Shown here piece after piece: positions 20 to 45,662 of a DNA stretch of 45,964 bases; position 1 is the first letter of the stretch; each line of letters begins with the position of its first letter. Position numbers and translations under genes: made by a program. This DNA is from a virus: positions 1 to 45,964 of the IMG/VR virus record IMGVR_UViG_3300033998_000339; one strand, written 5' to 3'. The notes beneath the pieces were generated by a model. The model was given only the letters and a program-made list of their open reading frames with translations. It did not search any database and was not told the origin of the DNA.

Positions 20-94
20 GGGCGGGTAGTTCAGTGGGAGAACGTCTGCTTGACGCGCAGAAGGTCGTAGGTTCAATTCCTACCCCGCCCACCA
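20..94 (+). tRNA. tRNA-Val (anticodon GAC)
   Basis: This 75-base cloverleaf has acceptor stem GGGCGGG/CCCGCCC, D stem GTTC/GAAC (29-32 with 40-43), anticodon stem TCTGC/GCAGA (45-49 with 57-61), loop TTGACGC with anticodon GAC at 52-54, T arm with GTTCAATTC, and an encoded CCA at 92-94. It is intact because the phage attachment sequence restores its 3' half. The original 3' half now lies at 45607-45651. Confidence 0.95.
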
Positions 95-105
95 GGAAAA
101 TCAAG
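50..105. repeat. attL core, 56-base direct repeat
   Basis: Bases 50-105 are identical to 45607-45662. The repeat starts in the anticodon loop and runs through the encoded CCA plus 11 bases. Sequence diverges immediately on both sides (C/A before, A/T after). This is the classic product of tyrosine-integrase recombination into a tRNA 3' end. Confidence 0.93.
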
Positions 106-168: not shown

Positions 169-1380
169 TTACCGCTTAACCCCTGTAGGGGGTTTTTCTT
201 TTGTTCTCAGGTAGCTGTCCAGCTTCACTGCCGCCCGCTGCAGCATTTCTGGTCTGACATGGGAGTAAATATCCATGGTCACATTTATCCTTGAATGTCC
301 AAGCAGTTCTTGAACAACTTTCGGATGTTCACCGGCTTCCAGAAGCAGTGTCGCGCAGGTATGCCTTAAGTTGTGCAGGGCCACGTGGGGAATGCCTGCC
401 TTCTTTAGCAATCGGGCATAACGTTTTCCGAAATTGTCAGGGTCCAATGGCCGCCCGTCTTCAGTACAGAACACCAGGCCGTTATCCTGGTATTCTTGCC
501 CGAAGAAAAGTTTCTCCTGGGCCTGGCGCCTTTTGTGTTCCTTTAGTTCCCGCAGAACCTCGCCGGGCAAAGGGACTGTCCGCCGGGACTTTGGGGTTTT
601 GGGTTCGTTGAAAACAAGGGCCGTTTTGGTCGGGCCGTTTTCAACTTTCACCCGGCCAATGGACTGCCTGACATGAACAACGCCGTTCTTCAAGTCCACG
701 TCCTGCCAGCGCAGGGCCAGCAGTTCTCCACGCCGCAGGCCGGTCCCGACGTCCATCAGAAAGGCTGCGTAAAGCCTGTCCGCCTTTGCCGCTTCCAGGA
801 AACGGGCCACTTGTTCAGCCGTCAACGGCTGAATTTCCTTGTAACGCAGTTTGGGCAGGCTTACTGCTTCGCTTACGTTCCGGTGAATAAGCTGTTCTTT
901 CATTGCTTGTTTTAACGCACCGTGAATAACCTGGTGCATCATGTGGATTGTCCTGCTTGACAGGCCGCCCTTTTTGCCATCAGCCCGGCCGCCTTCCATT
1001 TTGCTGTTGTACAGCCTCTGTAAATCTCCAGCCTGTAATTTGCTCAAGGGGACATGGCCAATTTCCGGGATTATGTGCAACCTGGCCACATCCTTATATC
1101 CATGCCACGTTTTGGGCCGCACACGGGGCTTTACATAATCATTCAGCCACCTATCCAACCATTCTCCCACCGTCACCTTGTGGGGTTCTACAAAAGTTCC
1201 CGTGGCCTTCTCGTGCTGCACCTGGACCAACCATTCTTGTGCCTCTTTGCGAGTTTTAAAGTATTTGGTGACCCGCTTCAACTTACCTGTGGTCGGGTCG
1301 CGGCCAATGCTGGCCTGGGCCATCCATCTACCGTCAGGACGTTTAGTGATTGTCCCTTCACCGTGCCCGCGTTTAGCCAT
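169..1380 (-). CDS. int: Tyrosine site-specific integrase
   Basis: This 403-residue recombinase catalyses integration and, with Xis, excision at tRNA-Val. The N-terminal 60 residues resemble the AP2-like arm-binding domain (GEGTITKRPDGRW). A SAM-like core-binding domain spans about 70-175 and the catalytic domain about 185-390. Visible catalytic residues are R216 (TGLRRGEL), H336 and R339 (HNLRHT), H362 (LGH) and Tyr372 (IYSHV). The gene lies directly beside attL, as expected. Its ATG follows the TAG of immA without a gap (TAGATG), so it is translated from the repressor-immA-int message and should be made in the lysogen. The terminator for the tRNA lies within its 3' end. Confidence 0.95.
   Translation of the reverse strand: MAKRGHGEGTITKRPDGRWMAQASIGRDPTTGKLKRVTKYFKTRKEAQEWLVQVQHEKATGTFVEPHKVTVGEWLDRWLNDYVKPRVRPKTWHGYKDVARLHIIPEIGHVPLSKLQAGDLQRLYNSKMEGGRADGKKGGLSSRTIHMMHQVIHGALKQAMKEQLIHRNVSEAVSLPKLRYKEIQPLTAEQVARFLEAAKADRLYAAFLMDVGTGLRRGELLALRWQDVDLKNGVVHVRQSIGRVKVENGPTKTALVFNEPKTPKSRRTVPLPGEVLRELKEHKRRQAQEKLFFGQEYQDNGLVFCTEDGRPLDPDNFGKRYARLLKKAGIPHVALHNLRHTCATLLLEAGEHPKVVQELLGHSRINVTMDIYSHVRPEMLQRAAVKLDSYLRTKEKPPTGVKR
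178..202 (+). terminator. Rho-independent terminator for the tRNA transcript
   Basis: AACCCC (178-183) pairs with GGGGTT (189-194) around a five-base loop. It is followed by a T tract TTTTT-C-TTTT. It reads rightward out of the tRNA and overlaps the last codons of the oppositely oriented integrase. The original host terminator with the same T-tract pattern is stranded at 45683-45708, so the phage seems to replace it. Confidence 0.6.
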
Positions 1381-1800
1381 CTAGTCTTCCACCTCCAGAA
1401 AAGTGGCAATTATTCTCAGGATCTTTTCCAGGCTTTCTGCCGAGCAGGCTTCTGAAACAATAGGCCTGTATTCTTCCGCTTTCTCGCCCAGCATTAGGTG
1501 GCAGGAAAACATGTTTGCCTGGTATTCTTCTTTGATGTAAAAAAGGGTTTTTTGGAGGATGAACACAAAGTTTGTCGAAGGATGTAAAAAAAAGTGGCCC
1601 AGTTCGTGGCCACAGACAAATTGGCGCTCCAGGTCTGAAAGAGTTGAGTTAATCAGTATGAACCTTTTTTCTCCCGCTTGGATCGACATTCCTGCGATGG
1701 TTTCAAAAGGCGCATAACGCACTGAAATACCTAAATCTTCCGCTATATCAATGGGCTTCTTGCCCGTTTCTGCCAGAGTTTTTGCTTTCGAATAGAGCAT
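1381..1800 (-). CDS. immA: ImmA/IrrE-type metallopeptidase
   Basis: This 139-residue protein has the zinc-metalloprotease signature HELGHFFLHP (HExxH) in the middle, preceded by a region typical of ImmA (ISVRYAPFETIAGMS). In ICEBs1 and phi105, ImmA cleaves the partner repressor ImmR and so triggers induction. The same repressor-immA-int order is seen here, which supports that role. The family is well recognised; the substrate is inferred from the neighbour. The start has an AGGG-type site close upstream. A 39-base gap separates it from the repressor gene, consistent with one transcript. Confidence 0.88.
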   Translation of the reverse strand: MLYSKAKTLAETGKKPIDIAEDLGISVRYAPFETIAGMSIQAGEKRFILINSTLSDLERQFVCGHELGHFFLHPSTNFVFILQKTLFYIKEEYQANMFSCHLMLGEKAEEYRPIVSEACSAESLEKILRIIATFLEVED

Positions 1801-1839: not shown

Positions 1840-2247
1840 TTATTTCTGCTGCCGTTTGGCAGCTCTTTCTTTTTGCAAGGTTTCCCATACTATCCGCAGG
1901 CCCAACATCACGTCTTCTTTGGTCTTCTCATCAAGAGGGTTTCCAAATAGCCGGAGATTGGGATGTTCTTTGATTATATTTTCCAGGTCGGCTTCCGTGG
2001 GAGGAGTGTCACGTTCGTACCATGGGTCAGGTATTTCCGAGACACCGTTTTTGCCGGTAAGAAGATACTGTACATTGCTATCAAGTGCATCGGCCAGTTT
2101 TTGTAGCATTTCATAATCCGGTTCTCGTCTGCCTACTTCCCAGGATGCCAAGGATGATCTGGCAACACCTATCCTTAAAGCCAGCTCTTTTTGGGTAAGC
2201 CCAAGCTTTTCTCTCAATTGTTTGATTCTATTTCCAAGCGTGTCCAT
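1840..2247 (-). CDS. immR: ImmR-like HTH repressor (lysogeny repressor)
   Basis: This 135-residue protein has an XRE-family helix-turn-helix in residues 1-60 (TLGNRIKQLREKLGLTQKEL, then RSSLASWEVGRREPD). The C-terminal part is short and probably helical. There is no LexA/CI-type self-cleavage domain, so inactivation by the adjacent ImmA protease is likely. I chose the ATG at 2247 because GGAGGTG sits at the right distance; an open frame extends upstream to 2343 but runs back through the operator region and lacks a ribosome binding site. It probably binds the TGTC/GACA elements at 2281-2365 and 40842-40881. Confidence 0.88.
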   Translation of the reverse strand: MDTLGNRIKQLREKLGLTQKELALRIGVARSSLASWEVGRREPDYEMLQKLADALDSNVQYLLTGKNGVSEIPDPWYERDTPPTEADLENIIKEHPNLRLFGNPLDEKTKEDVMLGLRIVWETLQKERAAKRQQK

Positions 2248-2295: not shown

Positions 2296-2322
2296 CATTT
2301 GTCTCGATAAGACACAAACACA

Positions 2323-2351
2323 TTGACAGTGGCAAAACGACACAGTATAAT
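2323..2351 (+). promoter_or_regulatory. Rightward lytic promoter with repressor operators
   Basis: A perfect sigma-A-type promoter is visible: TTGACA (2323-2328), 17-base spacer, TATAAT (2346-2351). GACAC (2339-2343) and GTGTC (2353-2357) form an inverted repeat over the -10 box. Further upstream TGTCT-CGATA-AGACA (2300-2314) forms another. Bound repressor would block RNA polymerase directly. A near copy of this block lies at 40836-40881. Confidence 0.85.
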
Positions 2352-2383
2352 AGTGTCAGAACGGCACAGGGAGGTAAGCAGTA

Positions 2384-2629
2384 ATGCTTCGGAGGAAATT
2401 GCTTGAGGCACGAAAAGAAGCGGGCTTCACACATGAGAAGATTGCGCAAGAGCTCGGTATTAGCCGTGCCCATTATACCCATATAGAGCTGGGGACAAGG
2501 AATCCATCTCTTGAACTAGCTGTGGAAATAGCTAGGTTGCTAAACAAAAGCTTAGATGAAATTTTTTTGCCCGAAGAAGTGTCGAAACGCGACACAGACA
2601 TTACAGAAAACGCTTCTCAGGCTGGTTAA
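2384..2629 (+). CDS. Cro-like HTH regulator
   Basis: This 81-residue protein is almost entirely an XRE-family HTH (EKIAQELGISRAHYTHIE followed by GTRNPSLELAVEIARLL). It is the first gene of the rightward operon, divergent from the repressor, which is the usual position of Cro. GGGAGGT lies eight bases before the ATG. It likely competes for the same operators and commits the phage to lytic growth. An alternative is an activator of a downstream phage gene. The 3' end carries an operator-like palindrome. Confidence 0.8.
   Translation: MLRRKLLEARKEAGFTHEKIAQELGISRAHYTHIELGTRNPSLELAVEIARLLNKSLDEIFLPEEVSKRDTDITENASQAG
2579..2595. promoter_or_regulatory. Operator-like palindrome in the cro 3' end
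   Basis: GTGTCG-AAACG-CGACAC is a perfect 6+6 inverted repeat using the same GTGTC/GACAC half-sites as the two promoters. It lies 230 bases downstream of the lytic promoter, inside the cro-like reading frame. It could be a third operator allowing looping or roadblocking. No binding evidence is available from sequence. Confidence 0.45.
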
Positions 2630-8523: not shown

Positions 8524-9354
8524 ATGATAAAAACACAGAAACCGAATGATTTAAAGTTCAAGGTGGTGGTTAAAGTGGATTATTTCGATCTGGTCAAACC
8601 CACCTACATAGAGAACTGGCCGGATGGGCTTATCAATCACTCGATAGCTACAGTTCATTTCCCACTTACCAAAGAACAAGTTAGATCATTGATTGCTCTA
8701 AATTATATGACCATGGAAGACGGACGCGAGCCAAAACCAGAAGAAAGAACTACATTCCTGAAGTTGGCGCGAAAATTATCGGAATATATAAAGCAATTTC
8801 CGAAAGGGGCGTTTGTCCGTTTAGGTAGCAGGAGCCCGAAAGATTCCTGGAAAGGACATAGGGATGGTTTTCGGTGCACTTCGGCAACTAAAGCATTAGC
8901 CCTTCTATGCGACAGTGAGAGGATATACGACGACCTGAATCTCGCCTTATCGAACAATTACACACCACACTTGGTTGTCAGGGAGTGGATTGAAATTGAA
9001 CCCTGGCAGGAGTTCCGGTGTTTTTACAAAAACCGGCGGCTGGTAGGAATATCACAGTATAACTACCTGAAAGGCGAAGTGTTCCCGGAAATAATAGAAC
9101 TGGCCGGAGCGATTGAGTGGGCGATAAGGCAAAAAAGCGAAATTATTGCCTCGCTTCTTCCGGCGGATGATGTGGTGGTTGATTACATCTACCGGGTAAA
9201 GCAGCGTGGTAATGAGCGGATAAACGAGGTAATATTGTTGGAGTGCAACCCATTCATGGTATACACTGACCCCTGCCTGTTTAACTGGTCAAAAGACACA
9301 TTCAATGAGTTTGAGTTTAGATATATGGAGCCGAACGGGGCGGGACAGAGGTGA
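8524..9354 (+). CDS. CDC123-like (D123 family) ATP-grasp protein
   Basis: This 276-residue protein matches the layout of the eukaryotic CDC123/D123 family. It has FVRLGSRSPKDSW (about 97-109), LVVREWIEIEPWQEFRCF with ISQYNYLKG (about 149-180), VVDYIYRV, and ECNPFMVYTDPCLFNW near the end. These correspond to the nucleotide- and metal-binding parts of an ATP-grasp fold. Eukaryotic CDC123 helps assemble eIF2; bacterial relatives are predicted to modify proteins or RNA. It starts ten bases after sbcC with no good ribosome binding site, so translation may depend on the upstream gene. It looks more A/T-rich than sbcC, which hints at separate acquisition. The family call is by motif recognition. Confidence 0.75.
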   Translation: MIKTQKPNDLKFKVVVKVDYFDLVKPTYIENWPDGLINHSIATVHFPLTKEQVRSLIALNYMTMEDGREPKPEERTTFLKLARKLSEYIKQFPKGAFVRLGSRSPKDSWKGHRDGFRCTSATKALALLCDSERIYDDLNLALSNNYTPHLVVREWIEIEPWQEFRCFYKNRRLVGISQYNYLKGEVFPEIIELAGAIEWAIRQKSEIIASLLPADDVVVDYIYRVKQRGNERINEVILLECNPFMVYTDPCLFNWSKDTFNEFEFRYMEPNGAGQR

Positions 9355-9361
9355 AGGTGGC

Positions 9362-9682
9362 ATGATCCTGTTTAAGCCAGAGCACGTCGATTTGATCCTT
9401 GCCGGCAAGAAGACCCAGACCAGGCGCATCGGTCGGCGCCGCTGGCGCGTCGGGTCGGTACATCAAGCGAAAACCGATTTTAAAAAGGGTAGCAAGCCTT
9501 TCGCCTTGCTCCGCATTATTTCCGTGCGCCAGGAACGGCTTGGGGATATTTCGGAGGACGATGCCCGGAGGGAAGGTTATCCGTCTATCGAGGCTTACAA
9601 AGAGGTTTTTAAGCGGATATATGGATGGTGGGACCCGAACGAGCTGGTGTGGGTTGTAGACTTCGAGGTGGTGTCGGTCTAA
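9362..9682 (+). CDS. ASCH-domain protein
   Basis: This 106-residue protein begins MILFKPEHVDLILAGKKTQT, the N-terminal signature of ASCH domains, followed by a basic RRIGRRRWRVG loop. ASCH domains have a PUA-like fold and are predicted or shown to bind RNA or modified nucleotides. GAGGTGAAGGTGG precedes the ATG at 9362; an upstream in-frame GTG/ATG region lies inside the previous gene and was not used. Phage ASCH genes often lie near Gp37/Gp68-type genes, as here. Confidence 0.8.
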   Translation: MILFKPEHVDLILAGKKTQTRRIGRRRWRVGSVHQAKTDFKKGSKPFALLRIISVRQERLGDISEDDARREGYPSIEAYKEVFKRIYGWWDPNELVWVVDFEVVSV

Positions 9683-9713
9683 AGTGCATGTCCTGAGAAA
9701 AGAGGGTGTGAGT

Positions 9714-10631
9714 ATGGGACAAACGAGGATAGAGTGGGCAACGGACGTTTGGAACCCCGTCACTGGCTGCACCCCGGTTAGTGAGGGCTGCCAAAACTGC
9801 TATGCCCGAATGATGGCTACCAGGCTCCGCGGTCGGTTTGGATATCCTGAAGATAATCCGTTCAGGGTAACACTGCATCCTGGCAGGGTGAGTTCGTTGG
9901 AACCAGCCTTGCGTGGCACGGGCAAGATCATTTTTGTTTGTTCAATGGGTGACCTTTTTCACCAGGACGTTCCGGAATCATTTATTCGAGAGATCCTGAA
10001 ACTGGTTACCGCAACAGGTCAACACACTTTTTTGATGTTAACTAAACGTCCAGAGCGGATGCGGAACGTTTTTAAAAGTTATTATGCAACAGGTGCTGCT
10101 ATAATCCGTAATTTATGGCTCGGCGTTACCGCCGAAAACCAAAAAACCGCCGATGAGCGCATCCCGATTCTGTTGCAGATTCCTGCGGCGGTGAGGTTTG
10201 TGAGTTGTGAGCCGCTGTTGGGGCCAATAGATTTATCCGCTTTCAAACCGTTCGATGGCGAGTGTTTCTGTCAGGATGATCCGAAGGGCTGCAAACCCCG
10301 CCTCACACCTAATTGCCCGGTGACAGCAATAGATTGGGTCATCTGTGGCGGCGAAACCGGCCCTAATGCCCGGCCCATGCACCTGGACTGGGTGCGGAGC
10401 TTGCGGGACCAGTGTCGTGAGGCAGAGGTGCCGTTCTTCTTCAAGCAGTGGGGCGAGTGGCAGTTGGTTAATCTCATGGAGCCGCTGGATGTTCGGAACA
10501 AGGAGACCGGGGACTTTGAGACATGGCCAGCAGGCAAAGAAGTTTTTAAGCGGGTTGGCCGTAAGGCCGCCGGCCGTCTACTGGACGGGCGGACGTGGAA
10601 TGAGATGCCAAATACGGAGGTGTCTAAATGA
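9714..10631 (+). CDS. DUF5131 (phage Gp37/Gp68) family protein
   Basis: This 305-residue protein starts with IEWATDVWNPVTGC and carries a three-cysteine cluster C-x6-C-x2-C (CTPVSEGCQNC), similar to radical-SAM-like iron-sulfur binding. Later blocks IFVCSMGDLFH, LTKRPERM, LWLGVTAENQ, CEPLLGPIDL and VICGGETGP are diagnostic of the family. A metal- or SAM-dependent modification role is predicted for these but the reaction is not established. The ATG at 9714 follows GAGGGTG. Its end overlaps the next gene (ATGA). Confidence 0.85.
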   Translation: MGQTRIEWATDVWNPVTGCTPVSEGCQNCYARMMATRLRGRFGYPEDNPFRVTLHPGRVSSLEPALRGTGKIIFVCSMGDLFHQDVPESFIREILKLVTATGQHTFLMLTKRPERMRNVFKSYYATGAAIIRNLWLGVTAENQKTADERIPILLQIPAAVRFVSCEPLLGPIDLSAFKPFDGECFCQDDPKGCKPRLTPNCPVTAIDWVICGGETGPNARPMHLDWVRSLRDQCREAEVPFFFKQWGEWQLVNLMEPLDVRNKETGDFETWPAGKEVFKRVGRKAAGRLLDGRTWNEMPNTEVSK

Positions 10632-24798: not shown

Positions 24799-26106
24799 AT
24801 GCGTGGCGGACTTTTTAATCCAATTACGGACCTGCAATTAGTTATTGCTTCCCTCCCGGCGCATTACGAACGTGATATCAGGTGGACGCAAAAGCCCGGG
24901 GCAAGGACAGTGTTGCTGTCTCCAAACAGGTTGACAGTCAACATCGGCAATCAAGGCTACAAGCTCGACTCCCAGATAGAGCTTGACCTGAATATAGCTG
25001 CAAATTGGGATTCAATAAGCCCCAGCGACTACACGGTGGCTGCAAACCGGGCAGGGAAAGATTTTTACATCTATGCCTGCCAGCCAGTCAGCGGCACAGC
25101 ACCAAAGATATTACTTTCAGCCAATTCAACTGTACCCAGCGGGTATAATGCTAATAATTCTCGTAAAATAGGAGGTTTTCATTGCCTTTGTGTAGGTGTT
25201 AATCATGCCAGCACTTTGACAGCGTGGGCACCTAATACGTCAATAAGTATAGGTGTTACAAGGAGAGCTACCACCTGGGATGGTTACTTATATAGATGTA
25301 TCACGGCGGGTACTACCGGCACAGCTGAGCCAACATGGTCAAATTACAGTGTTGGTCAGACAATTACAGATGGTAGTGTTACATGGTTAAAAGAGAGTCA
25401 TAGTCTTGAGGGATATGAGGCGGGCGATATTCTTCCTGCTTCCATTTGGGACTTAAAACACAGGCCCGTATCCAATCCGGAGGGAATGGTCTATTCCGAG
25501 GCGGCGAACATCTGGGTAGATATTTATCTCCAATCCGGCACCGGCGCAAATACCGCCAGTGTGTTTGGCGCAACTATCACCGACAACCGTAACTGGATGG
25601 ACTTTGTTGACGACGCCGGCGCGGTTAGAAAAACTCTTCTCTCTGACATTGAATTCCAACTGATTGCTGCTGGCAGCAATGAAGAAACCAATATAGCGGG
25701 AAGTGCTGATCCAGGCACTACCGGCGGCCATGTGGATATAGCAGGAAGGCGTATGATCAGCAACATTGGTTGCGAAGATTGCTGTGGGGTTATGTGGCAG
25801 TGGCTAAGGGATCAGTCTTTTAGAGTTGAGGCGAACCACACTCACACTGAAAACACAGCTGCCACATATACTCAGAATGCAACCACGGCCGCTACCGACT
25901 TTGCCGTCTGGAGATGGTATGATCTTCCCGGTGCCAAAGGGTCTTTATACAGACAGGGAGCCTTCGGTGATGTAAAGTTGCGCGCGGGCGCGGCTTGGAC
26001 CGATGGCGCGTCTTCCGGGTCGCGGTCTCGTGATGCGGCTGGCTATCGCTGGTATGCGGCTGCGGCTATCGGTTGCCGGCTGCACGCGGAGCCTTTAAGA
26101 GCGTAG
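24799..26106 (+). CDS. DGR target: variable ligand-binding tail protein (C-type-lectin-like)
   Basis: This 435-residue protein probably displays a variable binding surface at the tail. The last third resembles the C-type lectin/formylglycine-enzyme-like fold of DGR targets (WDLKHRPVSNPEGMVYSEAA, MWQWLRDQSF). The variable segment at residues 393-431 carries GSRSRDAAGYRW and IGCRLHA, followed by five fixed residues. A probable insertion at about 148-200 resembles a carbohydrate-binding module (WDGYLYRCITAGTTGTAEPT). Fifteen codons differ from the template, 14 changing the amino acid. All seven template AAT codons are changed. Confidence 0.9.
   Translation: MRGGLFNPITDLQLVIASLPAHYERDIRWTQKPGARTVLLSPNRLTVNIGNQGYKLDSQIELDLNIAANWDSISPSDYTVAANRAGKDFYIYACQPVSGTAPKILLSANSTVPSGYNANNSRKIGGFHCLCVGVNHASTLTAWAPNTSISIGVTRRATTWDGYLYRCITAGTTGTAEPTWSNYSVGQTITDGSVTWLKESHSLEGYEAGDILPASIWDLKHRPVSNPEGMVYSEAANIWVDIYLQSGTGANTASVFGATITDNRNWMDFVDDAGAVRKTLLSDIEFQLIAAGSNEETNIAGSADPGTTGGHVDIAGRRMISNIGCEDCCGVMWQWLRDQSFRVEANHTHTENTAATYTQNATTAATDFAVWRWYDLPGAKGSLYRQGAFGDVKLRAGAAWTDGASSGSRSRDAAGYRWYAAAAIGCRLHAEPLRA
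25977..26090 (+). repeat. DGR variable repeat (VR)
   Basis: This 114-base segment is offset 166 bases from the template repeat. The 19 substitutions are A to G (12), A to C (5) and A to T (2), read template to variable. It ends 13 bases before the TAG stop codon of the target gene begins. Confidence 0.97.
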
Positions 26107-26142: not shown

Positions 26143-26256
26143 GTTGCACGCAGGCACGGATTGGACCAATGGCACGAATTCCGGGTCGCGGTCTCGTAAT
26201 GCGAATAGCTATCGCTGGAATGCGAATGCGAATATCAGTTGCCAGCTGCACGCGGA
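26143..26256 (+). repeat. DGR template repeat (TR)
   Basis: This is the non-coding donor for the variable repeat, containing 27 adenines of which 19 are altered in the present variable copy. Seven AAT codons in the reading frame of the target can mutate to many residues but not to stop codons. Its transcript is copied by the adjacent reverse transcriptase. The region 26257-26381 between it and the RT gene presumably forms part of the structured template RNA. Confidence 0.97.
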
Positions 26257-26381
26257 TACAGGATTTGAGCTAACTCCTGGCTGGACCTGTTGGCCTTGTT
26301 CCGGGAAACCGGGGCAAAATACGAGAAAGGAGTTTGGGAATAGCTAGTAGTCATAACGAACGTTATTCCCAAAAAATAATT

Positions 26382-27410
26382 ATGAAAAGACATGGGAACC
26401 TGTTTTCGAAGATAGTTGATCCAGATAATATTTATAAAGCTTATCGTAACGCCCGGAAGGGCAAAGGATGGCAAAGAACGGTCCAGGAATTTGAGAAAAA
26501 TCTTGACACAAACTTGGCCAAAATTCGGCAAAGCTTAATTAACAAGACTTTCAGAACATCACGTTACAAGATAAAGATCATACACGAACCAAAAGAACGA
26601 GTCATCTACAGATTGCCTTTTAACCCCGACAGAATTGTCCAACATGCGCTTATGAATGTGCTTGAGCCGATTTGGGATAAATTGTTCATCTATGATTCAT
26701 ATGCTTGCAGAAAAGGAAAGGGAATTCACGCCGGGAGCAGGCGCACAATGGAGTTTGTTAGAAGGAATAAATATTGCCTTAAGTGCGATATTTCTAAGTT
26801 TTACCCCTCGATTAACCATGACATCTTATATAATATCGTACAGAGAAAAATTAAGTGCAAGGATACGTTATGGTTGATAAAGGACATTATTTATAGCATA
26901 GGCGGCGGCGTGAATGTTCCTATTGGTAACTATACAAGCCAGTGGTTTGGCAATCTGTACCTGAATGAGCTTGACCAGTTTATCAAACATAAATGTCACA
27001 TTAAAGATTATATCCGTTACTGCGACGATTTTTTGTTGTTTCATAACGATAAGAAATTGTTGGGTGAAATGGCCCAGGTTATTGAGTGCTTTTTAAGGGA
27101 GAAGTTACAACTTAAGCTTAGTAAAATTGATCTTTTTCCGGTGTCAAGAGGCGTTGATTTTCTCGGCTACAGACATTTTAAGGGATATATACTTATCCGG
27201 AAGAGTACGGTTAAACGGGTTAAGAAGAGGCTGAAGAAGCTCCCCATTCTTCTTGAGAAAGGCAGAATTACCCTCGACCAATACCGCTCATCGCTGGCTT
27301 CAACAATGGGATGGTTGAGATGGGCCAACAGTTACAATCTACGGAAAAGCCTTCAGATTGATTTATTGATGGAGGCGTGCAATGGAAAAGCAGAAAATAA
27401 AAAGATTTAG
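26382..27410 (+). CDS. DGR reverse transcriptase
   Basis: This 342-residue RT copies the template RNA with errors opposite adenine. Catalytic Asp136 (KCDISKFYPSI) and the YCDD box at 213-216 (RYCDDFLLF) are intact. Motif IGNYTSQ at 181-187 is the DGR-type form, where group II intron RTs have QGxxxSP. I chose ATG 26382, though no strong ribosome site precedes it; TTG at 26334 has AAAGGAG but at too short a spacing. The gene looks clearly more A/T-rich than the surrounding structural genes, in keeping with transfer as a cassette. It overlaps the next gene by 29 bases. Confidence 0.95.
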   Translation: MKRHGNLFSKIVDPDNIYKAYRNARKGKGWQRTVQEFEKNLDTNLAKIRQSLINKTFRTSRYKIKIIHEPKERVIYRLPFNPDRIVQHALMNVLEPIWDKLFIYDSYACRKGKGIHAGSRRTMEFVRRNKYCLKCDISKFYPSINHDILYNIVQRKIKCKDTLWLIKDIIYSIGGGVNVPIGNYTSQWFGNLYLNELDQFIKHKCHIKDYIRYCDDFLLFHNDKKLLGEMAQVIECFLREKLQLKLSKIDLFPVSRGVDFLGYRHFKGYILIRKSTVKRVKKRLKKLPILLEKGRITLDQYRSSLASTMGWLRWANSYNLRKSLQIDLLMEACNGKAENKKI

Positions 27411-36719: not shown

Positions 36720-38429
36720 GTGAGCCTAGCTAATTCACCGTGGCCGAAGTTTAGGCGTGATAACAGGAATACGGGATGTAGCCCGTACATTGGATCCGCA
36801 AGTGGCGAATTGAAATGGCGGTATTTGACTGGTAATCTAATAGATTCCTCACCAGCTATAGGAATTGACGGAACAATTTATGTTGGTAGTGGTGATAAAT
36901 ATCTTTATGCCTTAAGCCCCGATGGGACGCTCAAATGGCGATACTTGACTGGTGACTGGGTAGGTTCTTCACCAGCCATAGGATCTGATGGAACGATTTA
37001 TATTGGTAGCGATGATGGCTATCTTTACGCTTTAAACCCTGACGGGACACTTAAGTGGCGGTATCAGACGGGAGACTGGGTAGAGTCATCACCAGCCATA
37101 GGAGCCGATGGAACGATTTACTTTGGAAGCTACGACTGCTACTTCTATGCTTTAAACCCTAACGGTACTCTAAAATGGCGATATTTGACTGGTGACTGGA
37201 TATGGTCTTCGCCAGCCATAGGAATCGATGGGACGATTTATGTCGGCAGTACAGATGGCTACCTTTATGCCTTTAACCCTGATGGAACCCTCAAGTGGCG
37301 GTACCAAACCGGTGATACTATATGGTCTTCGCCGTCTGTGGGTGTTGATGGAACGATTTATATTGGTAGTGATGATGGCTATCTTTACGCCTTAAACCCT
37401 GACGGGACACTTAAGTGGCGGTACTTGACCGATTGGTGTGTGCGTTCCACTCCGGCAATAGGGTCTGATGGGACAATTTATGTTGGAAGCCGGGATTATT
37501 ACCTTTACGCCTTAAACCCTGACGGGACACTTAAGTGGCGATACTTGACCGATTCCGAGATACGTTCCTCACCGACTATAGGAGCCGATGGAACGATTTA
37601 TATTGGTAGCTATGATGGCTATCTTTACGCTTTAAACCCTGACGGGACACTTAAGTGGCGGTATCAGACGGGAGACTGGGTATACTCGTCGCCAGCTATA
37701 GGAACCGATGGAACAATTTACTTTGGAAGCTGGGATAGCTATCTTTACGCTATTGGTGTTGTTTCTTTCGAGGTCACAGCTACCAACCCGCCTCAAAATG
37801 CCATCAACGTAAATCCAGACACGGACATTCAAGTAACATTCTCCGATTCGCTCGACATATCAACCATATCGCCAAATACTTTACAGGTCTTAGGCACTAA
37901 CTTAGAGCAATACGAATATCAGTGGACTTATGATGATGCAACAAAAACACTCACCCTGACCATCCCCGGCGGCCTGGAAACAGACGCTTCCATAATCGTT
38001 AACCTGACCGACGGGCTTAAATCTACCGGCGGAGTTGCATTAACTCCTTATACCCTGGAATTCTCGACGGCGAAACTGCCGCTACAATGTGACCCGCCGG
38101 TGATCGTCGAACCATATTCCGCCAGGTGTGCCAGGCCGATGGCCATCGTGCAAGCACCTACGCCAGCCAGGCCCCGGGCGAAGTGGAGATTACACTTCCG
38201 AATCAGCGCTTACGCCGACGAGGCTGGTAGTCAGTTAATTAGTCAGGTGGATAGTAACACAAACTCGGAGCTGTTCGAGTACAGCCCGGACAACGGCTTG
38301 ACCTGGCACGACTTTCCAGCTGACGGGCTACCAAGGGAGCAATACGGAAAACTTGTTCGGGCCAGGGTGGAGGTAGGACCGAGGAAAAAGGTGTGGCTTA
38401 AAGCCAGTGCAGGGGCGGAAGATGCATAA
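36720..38429 (+). CDS. PQQ-type beta-propeller tail protein with Ig-like domain
   Basis: This 569-residue protein has eight 40-residue repeats of the form SSPAIGxDGTIYxGSxDGYLYALNPDGTLKWRY, residues about 43-346, predicted to close into one eight-bladed propeller. A Big_5-type Ig-like domain follows (about 350-450: ATNPPQNAINVNPDTDIQVT), then an unclassified C-terminal domain. No signal peptide is present, consistent with a virion protein. It likely recognises a cell-surface or extracellular polymer, a role inferred from its position at the end of the tail module. GTG start after GAGGTGATAAG. Confidence 0.82.
   Translation: MSLANSPWPKFRRDNRNTGCSPYIGSASGELKWRYLTGNLIDSSPAIGIDGTIYVGSGDKYLYALSPDGTLKWRYLTGDWVGSSPAIGSDGTIYIGSDDGYLYALNPDGTLKWRYQTGDWVESSPAIGADGTIYFGSYDCYFYALNPNGTLKWRYLTGDWIWSSPAIGIDGTIYVGSTDGYLYAFNPDGTLKWRYQTGDTIWSSPSVGVDGTIYIGSDDGYLYALNPDGTLKWRYLTDWCVRSTPAIGSDGTIYVGSRDYYLYALNPDGTLKWRYLTDSEIRSSPTIGADGTIYIGSYDGYLYALNPDGTLKWRYQTGDWVYSSPAIGTDGTIYFGSWDSYLYAIGVVSFEVTATNPPQNAINVNPDTDIQVTFSDSLDISTISPNTLQVLGTNLEQYEYQWTYDDATKTLTLTIPGGLETDASIIVNLTDGLKSTGGVALTPYTLEFSTAKLPLQCDPPVIVEPYSARCARPMAIVQAPTPARPRAKWRLHFRISAYADEAGSQLISQVDSNTNSELFEYSPDNGLTWHDFPADGLPREQYGKLVRARVEVGPRKKVWLKASAGAEDA
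36798..37759 (+). repeat. Eight tandem 120-base in-frame repeats
   Basis: The propeller blades are encoded by exactly 120-base units, each starting about where SSP is read (first full unit 36846). Several units are near identical at DNA level; 37021-37082 and 37621-37682 are identical over 62 bases although five units apart. Such homology would allow blade number or order to change by recombination. Confidence 0.85.
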
Positions 38430-40765: not shown

Positions 40766-40796
40766 GCACCCCGGAAGGGGTGCTTTTTATTTTTTG
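40766..40796 (+). terminator. Strong terminator ending the late operon
   Basis: GCACCCC (40766-40772) pairs perfectly with GGGGTGC (40777-40783), loop GGAA, followed by TTTTTATTTTTT. It isolates the late genes from the right-end operon. Confidence 0.92.
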
Positions 40797-40835
40797 TAAA
40801 ATGATGCAGTAAGACACAAATTTGAAAACAAGGTG

Positions 40836-40881
40836 TTGACAGTCGCATAGCGACACATTATAATAAGTGTCAGAATGACAC
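40836..40881 (+). promoter_or_regulatory. Repressor-type promoter/operator of the right-end operon
   Basis: TTGACA (40836-40841), 17-base spacer and TATAAT (40859-40864) form a perfect consensus promoter. GACAC (40852-40856) and GTGTC (40867-40871) flank the -10, and GTGTC-AGAAT-GACAC (40867-40881) is a further palindrome. Across about 46 aligned bases it differs from the lytic promoter at 2323 by six substitutions and one inserted base. The repressor and Cro-like protein should therefore act on both. Confidence 0.85.
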
Positions 40882-41211
40882 ACAAAAACAACCAAGGGGC
40901 ACCTTGACAACCGCATATGATTCGCCTGATAGGCGCGGCGGCGGCTGATAAAACGCCCGGCACGGATACACCGGCGGGGACCTCGGCGAGGTCGCAACGG
41001 GCCTGCGTAACAGGGGAGCGATGAACCCGGCTCAGGGATGGGCCAGCCCGATACCAGCCCCGGGGAAGGAGGAAAAAAACAAGGGGCGGGCCAGGGGGGA
41101 GCGGTGAACCAACAGGCAGGCTAAAGACGGCGCGAACCAGCGAGCGAGCGGGCAGGGAGACGATGGTGCCGGAGATAACACAGCAGTCTATACATGGGGG
41201 AGGGCCAAGCA
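40871..41211 (+). ncRNA. GC-rich transcribed leader, putative structured RNA or tiny-ORF chain
   Basis: Between the promoter and the first clear gene lie about 340 bases with no large credible reading frame on the plus strand. Visible stems include AAGG/CCTT (40894-40905) and GACCTC/GAGGTC (40979-40993), plus a CCCGG/CCGGG enclosure around 41025-41066. Two tiny frames overlap as ATGA: 40917-41024 (35 codons) and 41021-41107 (28 codons), the latter overlapping a GTG start (GTGA). Ribosome sites for these are poor. I cannot match it to a known RNA class. Confidence 0.45.
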
Positions 41212-41619
41212 ATGGAGCTGGTATACCATGGTCAAGTAAAGTTTTACCTCGACAGCTTTGTTTGCATTGATGTTCGCTATTTCGATGATTGGTACAATAA
41301 CGATTGCTGGTACATCTCTGTGTATGTGGACCGTAATTACCACCAGAGATGGAGGCTTTCTATATACTGTGCGACCAACGAAGCCTTGGATGCAGCGCGG
41401 TGGCTCGCAGAAAGTTTCAAGACCCAGGGTTTACGGACGCGCGTTAGGCTAAAAGTCGATAAGCCGGCAGAAAAACGCCTTCGCCATATAAGGGAACAGT
41501 ATGGTGAGGCTTGCACACAAAAAAAGGCAGAGTTAACGGATAAAAATATTCCGCATTGGTCAAAGCACAACCCAATTTCCCGGATAGCAAAAATTTTGAT
41601 TACGGAGGTTGGCGAATAA
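41212..41619 (+). CDS. Hypothetical first gene of the right-end operon
   Basis: This 135-residue protein has an N-terminal beta-rich part with many aromatic residues (FVCIDVRYFDDWYNNDCWYI, VYVDRNYHQRWRLSIYC) and a helical basic C-terminal half. ATG at 41212 follows GGGGGAGGG; the upstream ATG at 41194 lacks a ribosome site. Its stop overlaps the ravA start (TAATG), so translation is coupled. No family is recognised. Confidence 0.65.
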   Translation: MELVYHGQVKFYLDSFVCIDVRYFDDWYNNDCWYISVYVDRNYHQRWRLSIYCATNEALDAARWLAESFKTQGLRTRVRLKVDKPAEKRLRHIREQYGEACTQKKAELTDKNIPHWSKHNPISRIAKILITEVGE

Positions 41620-42737
41620 TGCGCAATAAGTTTCTGAGCATCGAAAAGGAATTAAATAGCGCCTATCTTGAGCGCCGGGAGGTCATCCGGGGCTTGCTGG
41701 TGGGCCTGCTCGCTCGCCAGCATGTTCTCTTGCTGGGACCACCTGGTACGGCGAAATCGGCCCTTGCGGAGGATATTTGCAGTAGAATCGGCGGGCGCTA
41801 CTTCCGCTGGCTGCTTGCCCGGACGAGCACACCGGAGGAACTGTTCGGGCCGGTTAGCCTCAAGGCACTGGAGAACGACAGCTACCGGAGGGTTACATCC
41901 GGCAAGCTCCCGGAGGCCGACATTGCCTTCCTTGACGAAATCTGGAAGTGCAATTCCGCCGTCCTGAACAGCCTGCTCACCGTGGTAAACGAGCGGCTGT
42001 TCTTCAATGACGGGCAGCCGGTGCAGGTTCCGCTGCAAATGCTCGTCGGGGCATCAAATGAACTCCCGGAAGACCGGGAGGAACTGGGGGCACTTTGGGA
42101 TCGTTTCCTCCTGCGCTTCGTGGTGTCTTACATCAAAGACCCGCGCAGCTTTGAAAAGCTCCTGGCGGGCGCAGGCGCAGATGGGCGCACCACGATCACC
42201 GCGCAGGAACTTGCCCAGGCCCAAGCGGAAGTCCAGCAGGTGGACATAAGCAAGGTAATCCGGCATATCGCTACCTTGCGGCAGAAGATGTTTGAGCTGA
42301 ACATCCCGGTTTCTGACCGCAGGTGGAAGCAGAGCCTCGACCTTATCCGGGCACACGCCTGGCTGGAAGGACGGGCACAGGCGGCAGAGGACGACCTGGC
42401 GATCCTGGCCGCAGCTCTCTGGCAGGAACCGGGGCAGATCGTCCAAGTGCGGCAGGCGATCATGGCCCTGGCGAACCCGCTTGATCAGGAAGCCCAGGAC
42501 CTACTGGACCAGGCGATGGAAGTCTGGCAGAACGCCATGCAGGCCCCAGATGAGAAAGCATCCTCTGTCGGTGCAGAAGCCAACGCCAAACTGAAGAAAA
42601 TAGCCAAGCGCCTGGAGGAGCTGCAGCGGGAAGCCCAGGCAAAAGGCAAGAGCGACGCCCGGATCGCCGAGGCCCTGTTTCAAGTGATTGGCTGGAACAA
42701 GGAGGTGGTTGCAAAGTGCTTGGGCATCCAGATTTGA
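41619..42737 (+). CDS. ravA: RavA-like MoxR-family AAA+ ATPase
   Basis: This 372-residue ATPase has Walker A GPPGTAKS (40-47), RTSTPEELFGPVSLKALE (the MoxR/RavA pre-sensor region), Walker B AFLDEIWK (D106-E107), sensor LVGASNELPE and VSDRRWKQSLDLIRAHAWL. These closely follow Escherichia RavA. It is much shorter than the 498-residue E. coli protein and lacks most of the LARA discoid domain that binds LdcI. RavA hexamers work with ViaA as chaperones for respiratory and iron-sulfur proteins and affect aminoglycoside sensitivity. A phage role is not known. Confidence 0.88.
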   Translation: MRNKFLSIEKELNSAYLERREVIRGLLVGLLARQHVLLLGPPGTAKSALAEDICSRIGGRYFRWLLARTSTPEELFGPVSLKALENDSYRRVTSGKLPEADIAFLDEIWKCNSAVLNSLLTVVNERLFFNDGQPVQVPLQMLVGASNELPEDREELGALWDRFLLRFVVSYIKDPRSFEKLLAGAGADGRTTITAQELAQAQAEVQQVDISKVIRHIATLRQKMFELNIPVSDRRWKQSLDLIRAHAWLEGRAQAAEDDLAILAAALWQEPGQIVQVRQAIMALANPLDQEAQDLLDQAMEVWQNAMQAPDEKASSVGAEANAKLKKIAKRLEELQREAQAKGKSDARIAEALFQVIGWNKEVVAKCLGIQI

Positions 42738-44149
42738 GCAGCTTCCTGGGGGTGTCGGAAGAAACCTTCCGGCACCTCGCACCGGGCAAGAACAATATCC
42801 ACCAAGACAAATACGACCGCACTTTATTTGACGAACTGATGGCGGCAAGCGACAAGCTGATCGACCTCGCAGCTAAGGGTCCGGCGACATTCCCGGCGCT
42901 GCTCCGGGACATCTGGGCGACTTATTACAAGACGGCCCCGGAGCTGATGCCGGAGGAGCGCGTCGATGTCGTACACCGGGTAAACCGCCCTTTCGTAGAA
43001 CGGCTGCAGGAAGATAAGACAGTGCAGGAAACCCGCCTGGTGACAATGCTTGACGAGCTTTCGGCAGGCGTCGCCACCATCGAGACCGGACGCAAGCTTC
43101 TGGAAGAATTAAAGCAGCGCCCGGAACTGGAAAAGGCGATGGAATACGCCCAGGCAGCAGCTAACCATGCCGCCGAAGGCTCAAATAGGCCAGCAACGGA
43201 GCTGGCCGACCTGGCGCAGCAAACACTCCAGCAAGCGGCCAGGGAAGTGCGCCGGACGGTGCGGGCGGTAGCGGAGGCCGGGAAAGAGAAAGCGGAAGAG
43301 CTGCAACAGGCCCTCGCCGGGTGGGGCCTGGAGCCGGGCGACCTGAAACGAGTGCCGATGGAAGAGCGGCTGAAGCTGGCTGAAAGGCTAACCGGGCCAA
43401 AGCTGAAGAAGCTTGCCGACCTGGTTGGCCGCTTCCGCAACCTGGCCCGGGCGCGGCAGAGGGAGAAACTGAAGAAGGAGCGGGACGAGCTACACGGGAT
43501 CACCGTCGGCGCGGATCTGTCCCGCGTCCTTCCAGCAGAACTGGCTATGCTCAGGCATCCCTTGCGCCGCCTGGACTTCTACCGGCGGTACACGGAGAAG
43601 CAGCTCCTCCAGTACGAGCTGCTGACAAAGGAGAAACTGGGCCGCGGCCCGATCATCTGCCTGGTGGACGCCTCCGGCAGCATGAACGGGGAGCCGATGG
43701 ACTGGGCGGTGGCGGTGGCCCTCGCCCTCCTGGACACCGCCACAAGGCAGAAGCGCAAGGCGGCAGTGATTTTCTTCGATACCCGCGTCCTGGCAGAGTA
43801 TCTTTTCACTCCAGGGGAGCGGGATATTGAAAAGTTTGTGGCAATCGCCACTACGGGCACGGCAGGCGGGACAGACTACGTTCCGGCACTTACCCGCGCA
43901 ATGGAACTGATGATCATGGACGGCTACGACAAGGCGGACATCGTGATGGTCACAGACGGCATCTGCCAGGTACCGGATACATTCCTGCAAGGCTTTTTTG
44001 AGTACAAGAGAATTTTCAACTTCCGCGTTTGGTCAGTCCTCATCGGATATGGATCACCCCGGGAGCTGACCCGCTGGTCTGACCGGGTGTGGCAAACTGC
44101 CCGGCCATCAGAAGGGGTGGCCGGAGAAATTTTCGAGGAGGTATGGTAA
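42716..44149 (+). CDS. viaA: ViaA-like VWA-domain protein
   Basis: This 477-residue protein is close in length to E. coli ViaA (about 483). An N-terminal helical domain with long coiled segments (about 60-290) leads to a C-terminal VWA domain. Its MIDAS has DASGSMNG (Asp318), a threonine in GTAGGTDY and MVTDGIC. ViaA stimulates the RavA ATPase and probably selects substrates. It starts at GTG 42716 after GAGGTGG, inside the end of ravA (22-base overlap), which would keep the two products balanced. Gene order ravA-viaA is the same as in enterobacteria. Confidence 0.88.
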   Translation: MLGHPDLSSFLGVSEETFRHLAPGKNNIHQDKYDRTLFDELMAASDKLIDLAAKGPATFPALLRDIWATYYKTAPELMPEERVDVVHRVNRPFVERLQEDKTVQETRLVTMLDELSAGVATIETGRKLLEELKQRPELEKAMEYAQAAANHAAEGSNRPATELADLAQQTLQQAAREVRRTVRAVAEAGKEKAEELQQALAGWGLEPGDLKRVPMEERLKLAERLTGPKLKKLADLVGRFRNLARARQREKLKKERDELHGITVGADLSRVLPAELAMLRHPLRRLDFYRRYTEKQLLQYELLTKEKLGRGPIICLVDASGSMNGEPMDWAVAVALALLDTATRQKRKAAVIFFDTRVLAEYLFTPGERDIEKFVAIATTGTAGGTDYVPALTRAMELMIMDGYDKADIVMVTDGICQVPDTFLQGFFEYKRIFNFRVWSVLIGYGSPRELTRWSDRVWQTARPSEGVAGEIFEEVW

Positions 44150-44242
44150 ATGTACCGGGAGGTAGACTGCGAAAAGTGCAAAAACTACGACAAGAAGTGC
44201 GAAGAGTGCGAGCACTACGAGCGGGACCTATACGCTTACTAA
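44150..44242 (+). CDS. 30-residue zinc-knuckle mini-protein
   Basis: ATG at 44150 follows the viaA stop without a gap. The product, VDCEKCKNYDKKCEECEHYE in its centre, has C-x2-C-x6-C-x2-C, enough for one zinc site or an iron-sulfur ligand set. GAGGAGGT lies upstream within viaA. It is highly charged. A small metal-binding partner of RavA/ViaA is an attractive inference, given their link to metal-protein maturation, but untested. Confidence 0.6.
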   Translation: MYREVDCEKCKNYDKKCEECEHYERDLYAY

Positions 44243-44270: not shown

Positions 44271-45236
44271 ATGGCAAGAGTACCTAAAACAAGCGATCTG
44301 ATAGCTGTCGAAAAAGCGCTTAACGTGGAGGTAAAATACCTCGGGGCTTTGGCCTGGTATTCGATCAGCGACTGCCTCATCACCCGCAACCAGTTAGCAG
44401 AACGACTATCCCAGGCAGGTCTGGAAGAAAGGTTTCTCCCCGGTGAACTAAACATTCGTGACGCTTTCCGCCGGGCCTGCCACGCCGGGGAGCGCAAGCG
44501 GGAACCTGCCGGCGACAATAATTTTGTGAACATCCTTATTCGCCAGGTAAAGGCAGATTCAAGAGATATGGTTGTCCAAGTAGTAAAGGAGGTTGTAGAC
44601 GCTAAAAATATTCGCCTTTCTTATGAACCTATGGTGGAGCTTACTTTGCTTGATGGAGAGATCACCGTGCGGGAACTGGTCGATGTTTTGCCCGAAGACA
44701 TTGCCATAAATGCGGCTTATGCTATCGTCAACAGGTTCCAGGTGGTAAAGAACCATTACGAGGGTTACCACATACGTGACCTGGTCATGCGAGTACTCCG
44801 GGAATGTGACCCGGTTGCTGTCCGGCCATCCGGTGGCGTGTACTTCGTTCCTCAGGTGCACGAAGAAAAACTCCAGGCGCTTAAATCCTTCGTCAATAGT
44901 CTGGCTGAATACAGCGTGACCAGTAATACATCTTCCATGTGGAGTATCCCGGTGATCGACGTAGAAGAACACCGGCAAATGATCCGGGTATCCCTGGAGG
45001 AGCAGGTGAATGCGGAATCCGAACGACTGATTTCTGAGATGACCGAGATTATTAAGAGCGGGAAGACCATCAGACAGAAGACGGCAAAACAGTATATCGA
45101 CCGGGTAAGGAACCTGGCGCGGCTGGTGAAGGACTATAAAGACCTGTTGGAAACAAAGAGCATCAGGGCCGAATCTAACCTTGAGTTTGCTCTCATAGAG
45201 GCCCAAAAACTGCTGATGAATGCGGAGGCTGCATAG
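44271..45236 (+). CDS. Conserved phage hypothetical, possibly DUF6744-like
   Basis: This 321-residue protein resembles phage proteins I have seen grouped with MoxR and VWA genes; DUF6744 is my best guess and is not certain. The N-terminal third (LIAVEKALNVEVKYLGALAW) is followed by mixed alpha/beta (FQVVKNHYEGYHIRDLVMRV, RPSGGVYFVPQVHEEKLQAL) and an extended C-terminal coiled coil (about 235-315). GGGAGGAGAATGACAA precedes the ATG. It is likely the substrate or effector of the ATPase/VWA pair, by context only. Confidence 0.65.
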   Translation: MARVPKTSDLIAVEKALNVEVKYLGALAWYSISDCLITRNQLAERLSQAGLEERFLPGELNIRDAFRRACHAGERKREPAGDNNFVNILIRQVKADSRDMVVQVVKEVVDAKNIRLSYEPMVELTLLDGEITVRELVDVLPEDIAINAAYAIVNRFQVVKNHYEGYHIRDLVMRVLRECDPVAVRPSGGVYFVPQVHEEKLQALKSFVNSLAEYSVTSNTSSMWSIPVIDVEEHRQMIRVSLEEQVNAESERLISEMTEIIKSGKTIRQKTAKQYIDRVRNLARLVKDYKDLLETKSIRAESNLEFALIEAQKLLMNAEAA

Positions 45237-45250
45237 AGAGGGGTACAGCC

Positions 45251-45457
45251 ATGAATAACTGGAATGACCTACCGGCTGTCTTAACCATTGAAGAAACGGC
45301 CCGCTTTCTGCGGCGGGGATACAGGTGCGTGTTACAGCTTTGCCACCGGCACGATTTTCCTGCCATAAAGCTGGGCCGCCGGTGGATGATAAACAGGGAT
45401 GGGCTTCGCCGGTGGCTGGAGCAGCAAACCGAACAAAATTCCTCCACCCTGCCGTAA
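45251..45457 (+). CDS. xis: Excisionase-like winged-helix protein
   Basis: This 68-residue protein has the MerR/excisionase-type domain LTIEETARFLRRGYRCVLQL followed by FPAIKLGRRWMINRDGLRRW. It should bind near attR and bias integrase towards excision. It lies next to the right arm sites and attR, and at the end of the operon controlled by the repressor-type promoter at 40836. That arrangement ties excision to induction. GAGAGGGG precedes the ATG. Confidence 0.85.
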   Translation: MNNWNDLPAVLTIEETARFLRRGYRCVLQLCHRHDFPAIKLGRRWMINRDGLRRWLEQQTEQNSSTLP

Positions 45458-45469
45458 GGCGGGTGGAGG
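45441..45469. terminator. Hairpin at the xis stop
   Basis: CCTCCACCC (45441-45449) pairs perfectly with GGGTGGAGG (45461-45469) with an inner GCC/GGC pairing; the xis stop codon lies in the loop. There is no clean T tract on the plus strand, whereas the minus-strand side has AATTTTGTT. It may end the operon or insulate attR. Confidence 0.5.
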
Positions 45470-45470
45470 A

Positions 45471-45493
45471 ATTACTGCAATTTTACTGCAATG
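45471..45493. other. Putative integrase arm-binding sites, right
   Basis: Two copies of TTACTGCAA at 45472-45480 and 45483-45491 match the left pair in order, orientation and 11-base spacing. Only bases 10-11 of the repeat unit differ (AA/TT). They lie 113 bases inside attR. The 113-base stretch between them and the core (45494-45606) holds no gene and may bind Xis. Confidence 0.6.
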
Positions 45494-45606: not shown

Positions 45607-45662
45607 TTGACGCGCAGAAGGTCGTAGGTTCAATTCCTACCCCGCCCACCAGGAAAATCAAG
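45607..45662. repeat. attR core, displaced tRNA-Val 3' end
   Basis: It is identical to 50-105 over 56 bases and carries the original 3' part of the tRNA including CCA. It lacks the 5' half, so it is not a functional tRNA gene. Confidence 0.93.

Follow-up and report, generated by a model that had tools for sequence, protein, structure and literature searches.

The prophage of a bacterial virus analysed here (the window, meaning the whole stretch of 45,964 nt, IMG/VR record IMGVR_UViG_3300033998_000339, positions 1 to 45,964) raises the question of why a consensus promoter near its right end resembles the one preceding cro near its left end, and whether the two are read by the same regulators. 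Its ends are marked by 56-bp exact direct repeats, attL lying in the 3′ end of a plus-strand tRNA-Val gene (repeat, 50..105; tRNA, 20-94) and attR at 45607..45662. Repeated TTACTGCAA boxes stand beside both att sites (139-164 and 45468-45493) and are probably integrase arm-type sites. Inward of attL, genes with profile matches to a tyrosine integrase (169..1380) and an HTH_3 repressor (1840..2247) border that of an ImmA-like M78 metalloprotease (1381..1800; PF06114, 9.8e-15); the three follow the order repressor, protease, integrase on the minus strand, with the protease and integrase genes abutting. Among solved structures, the DNA-binding domain of ICEBs1 ImmR (7t8i) was the second-best match of the repressor (9e-9), a relation that is not exclusive since P22 C2 and 434 match too. 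The left operon opens on the plus strand with a gene for a Cro-like HTH protein (2384..2629), assigned by profile match and by the Cro comparison described below. A possible weak repressor promoter, TTGCCT-N17-TATGCT, was recognized by eye on the minus strand (2268-2297), with a poor dyad in its spacer (2282-2296).

Only two sigma-70-type promoters matching the consensus at all 12 positions occur in the window, both TTGACA-N17-TATAAT on the plus strand, one ahead of cro at 2323..2351 and the other at 40836..40864; no perfect promoter arose in any of 200 Markov-1 samples of the window. The first-pass annotation had read the block at 40836 as a repeat of the block at 2323, with the same hexamers and 17-nt spacer and with six substitutions and one indel over about 46 bases. 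The repeat was borne out and the count is exact: the local alignment spans 47 columns, in which six positions are substituted and a 1-nt gap occurs, and it scores 57, versus 24 for the next best unrelated place in the window for the left block. The same annotation had taken the flanking GACAC and GTGTC as half-sites paired across the -10 hexamer. This pairing was abandoned because the spacing there shifts by one base, while each dyad keeps its length; the half-sites belong instead to two neighbouring 15-bp dyads, GTGTC-N5-GACAC. Each promoter carries two such operator units, one filling the spacer between -35 and -10 and the other located just after the -10, over the expected start site.

Scanning the window for this dyad with up to two mismatches marked three positions on the left (2301, 2329 and 2353) and two on the right (40842 and 40867). 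The left sites each differ from the dyad at one position and correspond to O1 (2301..2315), O2 in the spacer (2329..2343, GTGGC-N5-GACAC) and the start-site dyad O3 (2353..2367, GTGTC-N5-GGCAC). On the right, the spacer holds O2′ (40842..40856, GTCGC-ATAGC-GACAC, two mismatches), and the expected start site is covered by O3′ (40867..40881, GTGTC-AGAAT-GACAC), a perfect dyad. The two dyads of a promoter are spaced 24 bp on the left versus 25 bp on the right, the single indel of the block falling between them. A third element, absent from the earlier annotation, is a weaker upstream half-site, TAAGACACAAA, with exact occurrences at 2308 and 40810 as its only matches in the window even when one mismatch was allowed. 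Its right-hand version, O1′ (40803..40820), has a single good half-site and is also present in the genome described next.

A scan of approximately 85,000 genomes, in which the pattern comprised the promoter and part of O2 only, returned nine loci, and the complete three-part layout was found in one of them, L006, a Clostridiales MAG. The parts of L006 lying outside the search pattern are O1 (TAAGACACAAA), the rest of O2 and the start-site dyad GTGTCAGAACGACAC, and its O1, O2 and O3 stand at matching spacing. These operators are located between a repressor homologous to that of the window (42% identical) and a homologous Cro (46%). The recognition helices of L006 and the window are near-identical in both proteins, the recognition regions reading GVARSSLASWEVGRREP versus GVARATLASWETGRRSP in the repressor and SRAHYTHIELGTRNPS versus DRASYTHIERGTRNPS in Cro. 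When the window was probed with L006 O3, allowing three mismatches at most, the only matches were at 2329, 2353 and 40867. A matrix built from the three L006 sites likewise ranked 40867 first, followed by 2329, 2353 and 2301, its top score being reached by no Markov sample; the probe is the cleaner test, as the search pattern had already dictated part of one of the three matrix sites. O3′ is the best 15-mer of the window for the L006 operators and differs from L006 O3 at one position, while among the main dyads O2′ scores lowest (11.5 bits, versus 18.8 for O2). As a specificity control, locus L105, with a more distant repressor and another recognition region, has another repeated operator, GTTATCGTTTCGGTAAC. 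Since the L006 operator picks out only these two regions of the window, one regulator should read both promoters, and to that extent the earlier proposal of one repressor silencing two early operons stands; that the operons are early, repressed in the lysogen and induced jointly is the more conjectural part of that proposal.

The other eight loci returned by the genome scan (L007-L014) are without operators and look like chance matches, and searches of viral contigs with the promoter and operator patterns gave no match. The nearest viral repressor, at locus L005, is different and without operators. No operator cluster outside the window and L006 was found among 80 repressor relatives from viral contigs and 30 loci from a class-wide genome search. 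The right-end promoter copy was found in no other phage in the searches of viral contigs and genomes, so the two-site arrangement has not been seen twice. In a short survey of 45 partial loci for second copies of control regions, the one strong match, in L101, was set aside as a distant promoter copy, for it is no more than ~500 bp away from the control region and looks like a gene end that has been repeated locally.

What the right promoter serves is apparent from its surroundings. An intrinsic terminator (40766..40783, plus strand; a 7-pair stem followed by TTTTTATTTT) separates it from the late operon, and six tightly packed plus-strand genes follow it, the last of the excisionase family. 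An untranslated, T-poor leader of ~330 nt (40882..41211) precedes the first gene; it matched no Rfam family and showed no excess structure (fold z -0.08), so that its reading as a known or structured phage RNA was dropped, and searches of phages and plasmids gave no meaningful match. Two short overlapping ORFs in this leader (35 and 28 aa, 40917-41104) are putatively coding. The first gene, with GGGGGAGG before its ATG, encodes a 135-aa protein (41212..41619) without a match in NCBIfam from this start, or in Pfam for the longer frame beginning at 41194. Next come an AAA+ ATPase of the MoxR/RavA type (41619..42737; Pfam bpMoxR, 2.5e-58) and a vWA protein (42716..44149), which are RavA-like and ViaA-like only, as they fall short of the respective equivalog cut-offs (225 versus 681 bits, and 105 versus 500 bits). 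A 30-aa Cys-rich ORF recognized from its sequence (44150..44242) and a DUF6744 protein (44271..45236; Pfam, 1.3e-50) lead to the HTH protein at 45251..45457, a probable excisionase by family (TIGR01764, 35.4 bits against a cut-off of 28.8; HTH_17) whose gene ends 150 bp from attR. Some HTH_17 proteins are not excisionases. A stable hairpin over the end of this gene (45437..45473, plus strand; -29.5 kcal/mol) may act as a terminator, with a weak T run. No other good promoter was found within the operon. Consistent with the first-pass annotation, the promoter at 40836 is thus placed to drive the right-end operon including xis, being the sole good promoter ahead of the TIGR01764 gene and having a terminator upstream. 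Relatives of the ATPase and of the DUF6744 protein are encoded near each other in Moorella phage MTATph1, where a hypothetical protein directly follows the ATPase.

From the sites, the gene order and the cognate operator of L006, from which binding, repression, induction and excisionase activity are all deduced, we infer that the block at 40836 is very probably a second lytic promoter that carries the operators found at cro and responds to the same regulators, in a lambda-like immunity regulon. These regulators would be the repressor (1840-2247) and probably also the Cro-like protein (2384-2629). In the lysogen, repressor bound to the spacer and start-site dyads would bar RNA polymerase from both promoters, and the opposite strand would supply the repressor itself, the ImmA-like protease and the integrase, leaving int on and xis off; integration would be stable for want of excisionase. 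As the terminator at 40766 stops readthrough from the late genes, expression of the excisionase-family gene would await the end of repression, which the M78 protease probably brings about in the way that ImmA acts on ImmR. Both operons would then start together, and excision of the prophage would coincide with the switching on of cro and the early genes. The distance of 38 kb noted earlier between the promoters holds for the prophage; on the excised circle they lie ~7 kb apart across attP, with xis and int on either side of it. Because O2′ is the weakest main dyad, repression may be looser at the right promoter than at the left one, or Cro may be preferred there. So read, the locus turns a phage of a poorly studied group into a testable two-site immunity regulon, in which independent evidence defines the likely operator sequence and there is a clear regulatory rationale for int being on and xis off. 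It would also place under lytic control a RavA/ViaA-like pair and a DUF6744 gene.

How the right block arose is a separate matter. Calling it a duplicate, as had been done earlier, is apt for the likeness of the sequences and goes too far as to descent, left and right being hardly closer to each other than left is to L006 (7 of 46 positions differing, compared with six plus the indel) and the flanks outside the blocks being unrelated (18% and 30% identity). Since the left and L006 blocks differ so little although they come from distant elements, such a block can be kept alike by selection alone, which could also account for the likeness of left and right. There is an appreciable, though less than even, probability that the right promoter, while controlled by the same repressor, did not arise by copying of the left block and instead came with its cassette from another element sharing the immunity type, or converged. 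The unrelated flanks favor this origin, as does the spacing of O1 to O2, which is 39 bp on the right as in L006 versus 28 bp on the left. Against it, 40 of 46 positions are common to the left and right blocks, a slightly higher number than when either one is compared with L006, but this margin cannot separate descent from selection. Either origin is compatible with the shared-repressor function that we favor.

An operator-like dyad, GTGTCG-N5-CGACAC, lies inside the 3′ end of cro (2579..2595). It occurs at the same place in L006 (815-830) and, with a sequence of its own, in L105 (1125-1141). In a survey of 90 non-redundant immunity regions, in which a close copy was one with up to two mismatches to a dyad of the control region, 14 had such a copy at a distance of 240-480 nt from the start of the repressor, and 13 of these cluster at ~342-392 nt; the next tiles out to 960 nt held copies in 0-1 of the 90 regions, and tiles beyond in 3-4. 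Measured from the main operator, the clustered dyad of these 13 regions is ~220-270 bp away, although the operator sequences differ. In its position at the 3′ end of cro, the 2579 dyad presumably resembles OD of TP901-1 and phi13, and it is probably the OD site of a TP901-1-like switch. More speculatively, and with a rather low probability, the right operon could be a portable exit module (the ATPase/vWA pair as remodelling factors, DUF6744 and excisionase) brought under immunity by a full promoter copy of its own, and the repressor could also bridge both operator clusters and the OD-like site across attP, tightening lysogeny.

Less probable still is a right promoter that answers chiefly to the Cro-like protein rather than the repressor, being open in the lysogen or lowered late in lytic growth, with the operon acting as an accessory cassette expressed from the prophage. 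The weak O2′, the single half-site of O1′ and the conservation of the Cro recognition helices relative to L006 all fit this reading, and RavA/ViaA-like genes adjoining an att site could be cargo. It is hard to square with O3′, the best dyad of the window, covering the start site, and an open consensus promoter before an excisionase gene would be expected to threaten the lysogen. As to a chance likeness between two strong promoters, hexamers by themselves recur in any genome, but the shared positions include dyads outside the hexamers, the Markov samples yielded no perfect promoter and the independent operator probe matches these sites only, so that this explanation, of negligible probability, is already refuted at the level of sequence.

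The two-site regulon proposed here recalls lambda OL/PL and OR/PR in that two promoters of a single phage, one before cro and the other before an operon with xis (by family), bear similar operators. In lambda, the two operator regions flank cI ~2.4 kb apart, and int lies within the xis operon. In the window, by contrast, the second promoter is at the other end of the prophage, int belongs to the repressor operon, and the xis operon carries RavA/ViaA-like and DUF6744 genes. L006 differs as well, its excisionase-family gene belonging to the cro operon. ICEBs1 of Bacillus subtilis offers another likeness, with repressor, M78 protease and integrase on one strand and xis behind a promoter that, in the window, is predicted to be repressed. 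In ICEBs1, int expression is low and constitutive and xis comes on after derepression (PMC9956884), ImmA lifting the repression by ImmR (PMC9956884, PMC8960796), and xis and the main operon share one promoter, Pxis (PMC8960796). The window has separate copies for the cro and xis-operon promoters; with two promoters rather than a single Pxis, it would work like ICEBs1 while standing outside its layout. The CI/MOR switches of TP901-1 and phi13 are described as having several CI operators (OR, OL and OD) around a divergent switch, and the right-end operator copy of the window has no counterpart in those descriptions (PMC7250872, PMC8516035). Mycobacteriophage stoperators are many sites scattered over the genome and bound by one repressor (PMC9283540), unlike the main sites of the window, which are true promoters in two regions only. 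The logic is thus already known from lambda OL/OR and ICEBs1 Pxis; what differs is the division of parts, int lying with the repressor, and cro and xis behind two promoter copies.

Elsewhere in the prophage, genes of the D123 and DUF5131 families, unusual for a phage, follow SbcC/D-like genes in the left operon (8524-10631). A protein resembling a beta-propeller, with 120-nt repeats, is encoded in the tail region (36720-38429). A diversity-generating retroelement comprises a variable repeat with which a tail gene ends (25977-26090), a template repeat (26143-26256) and a reverse transcriptase (26334-27410), and all 19 differences between its repeats fall on template adenines.
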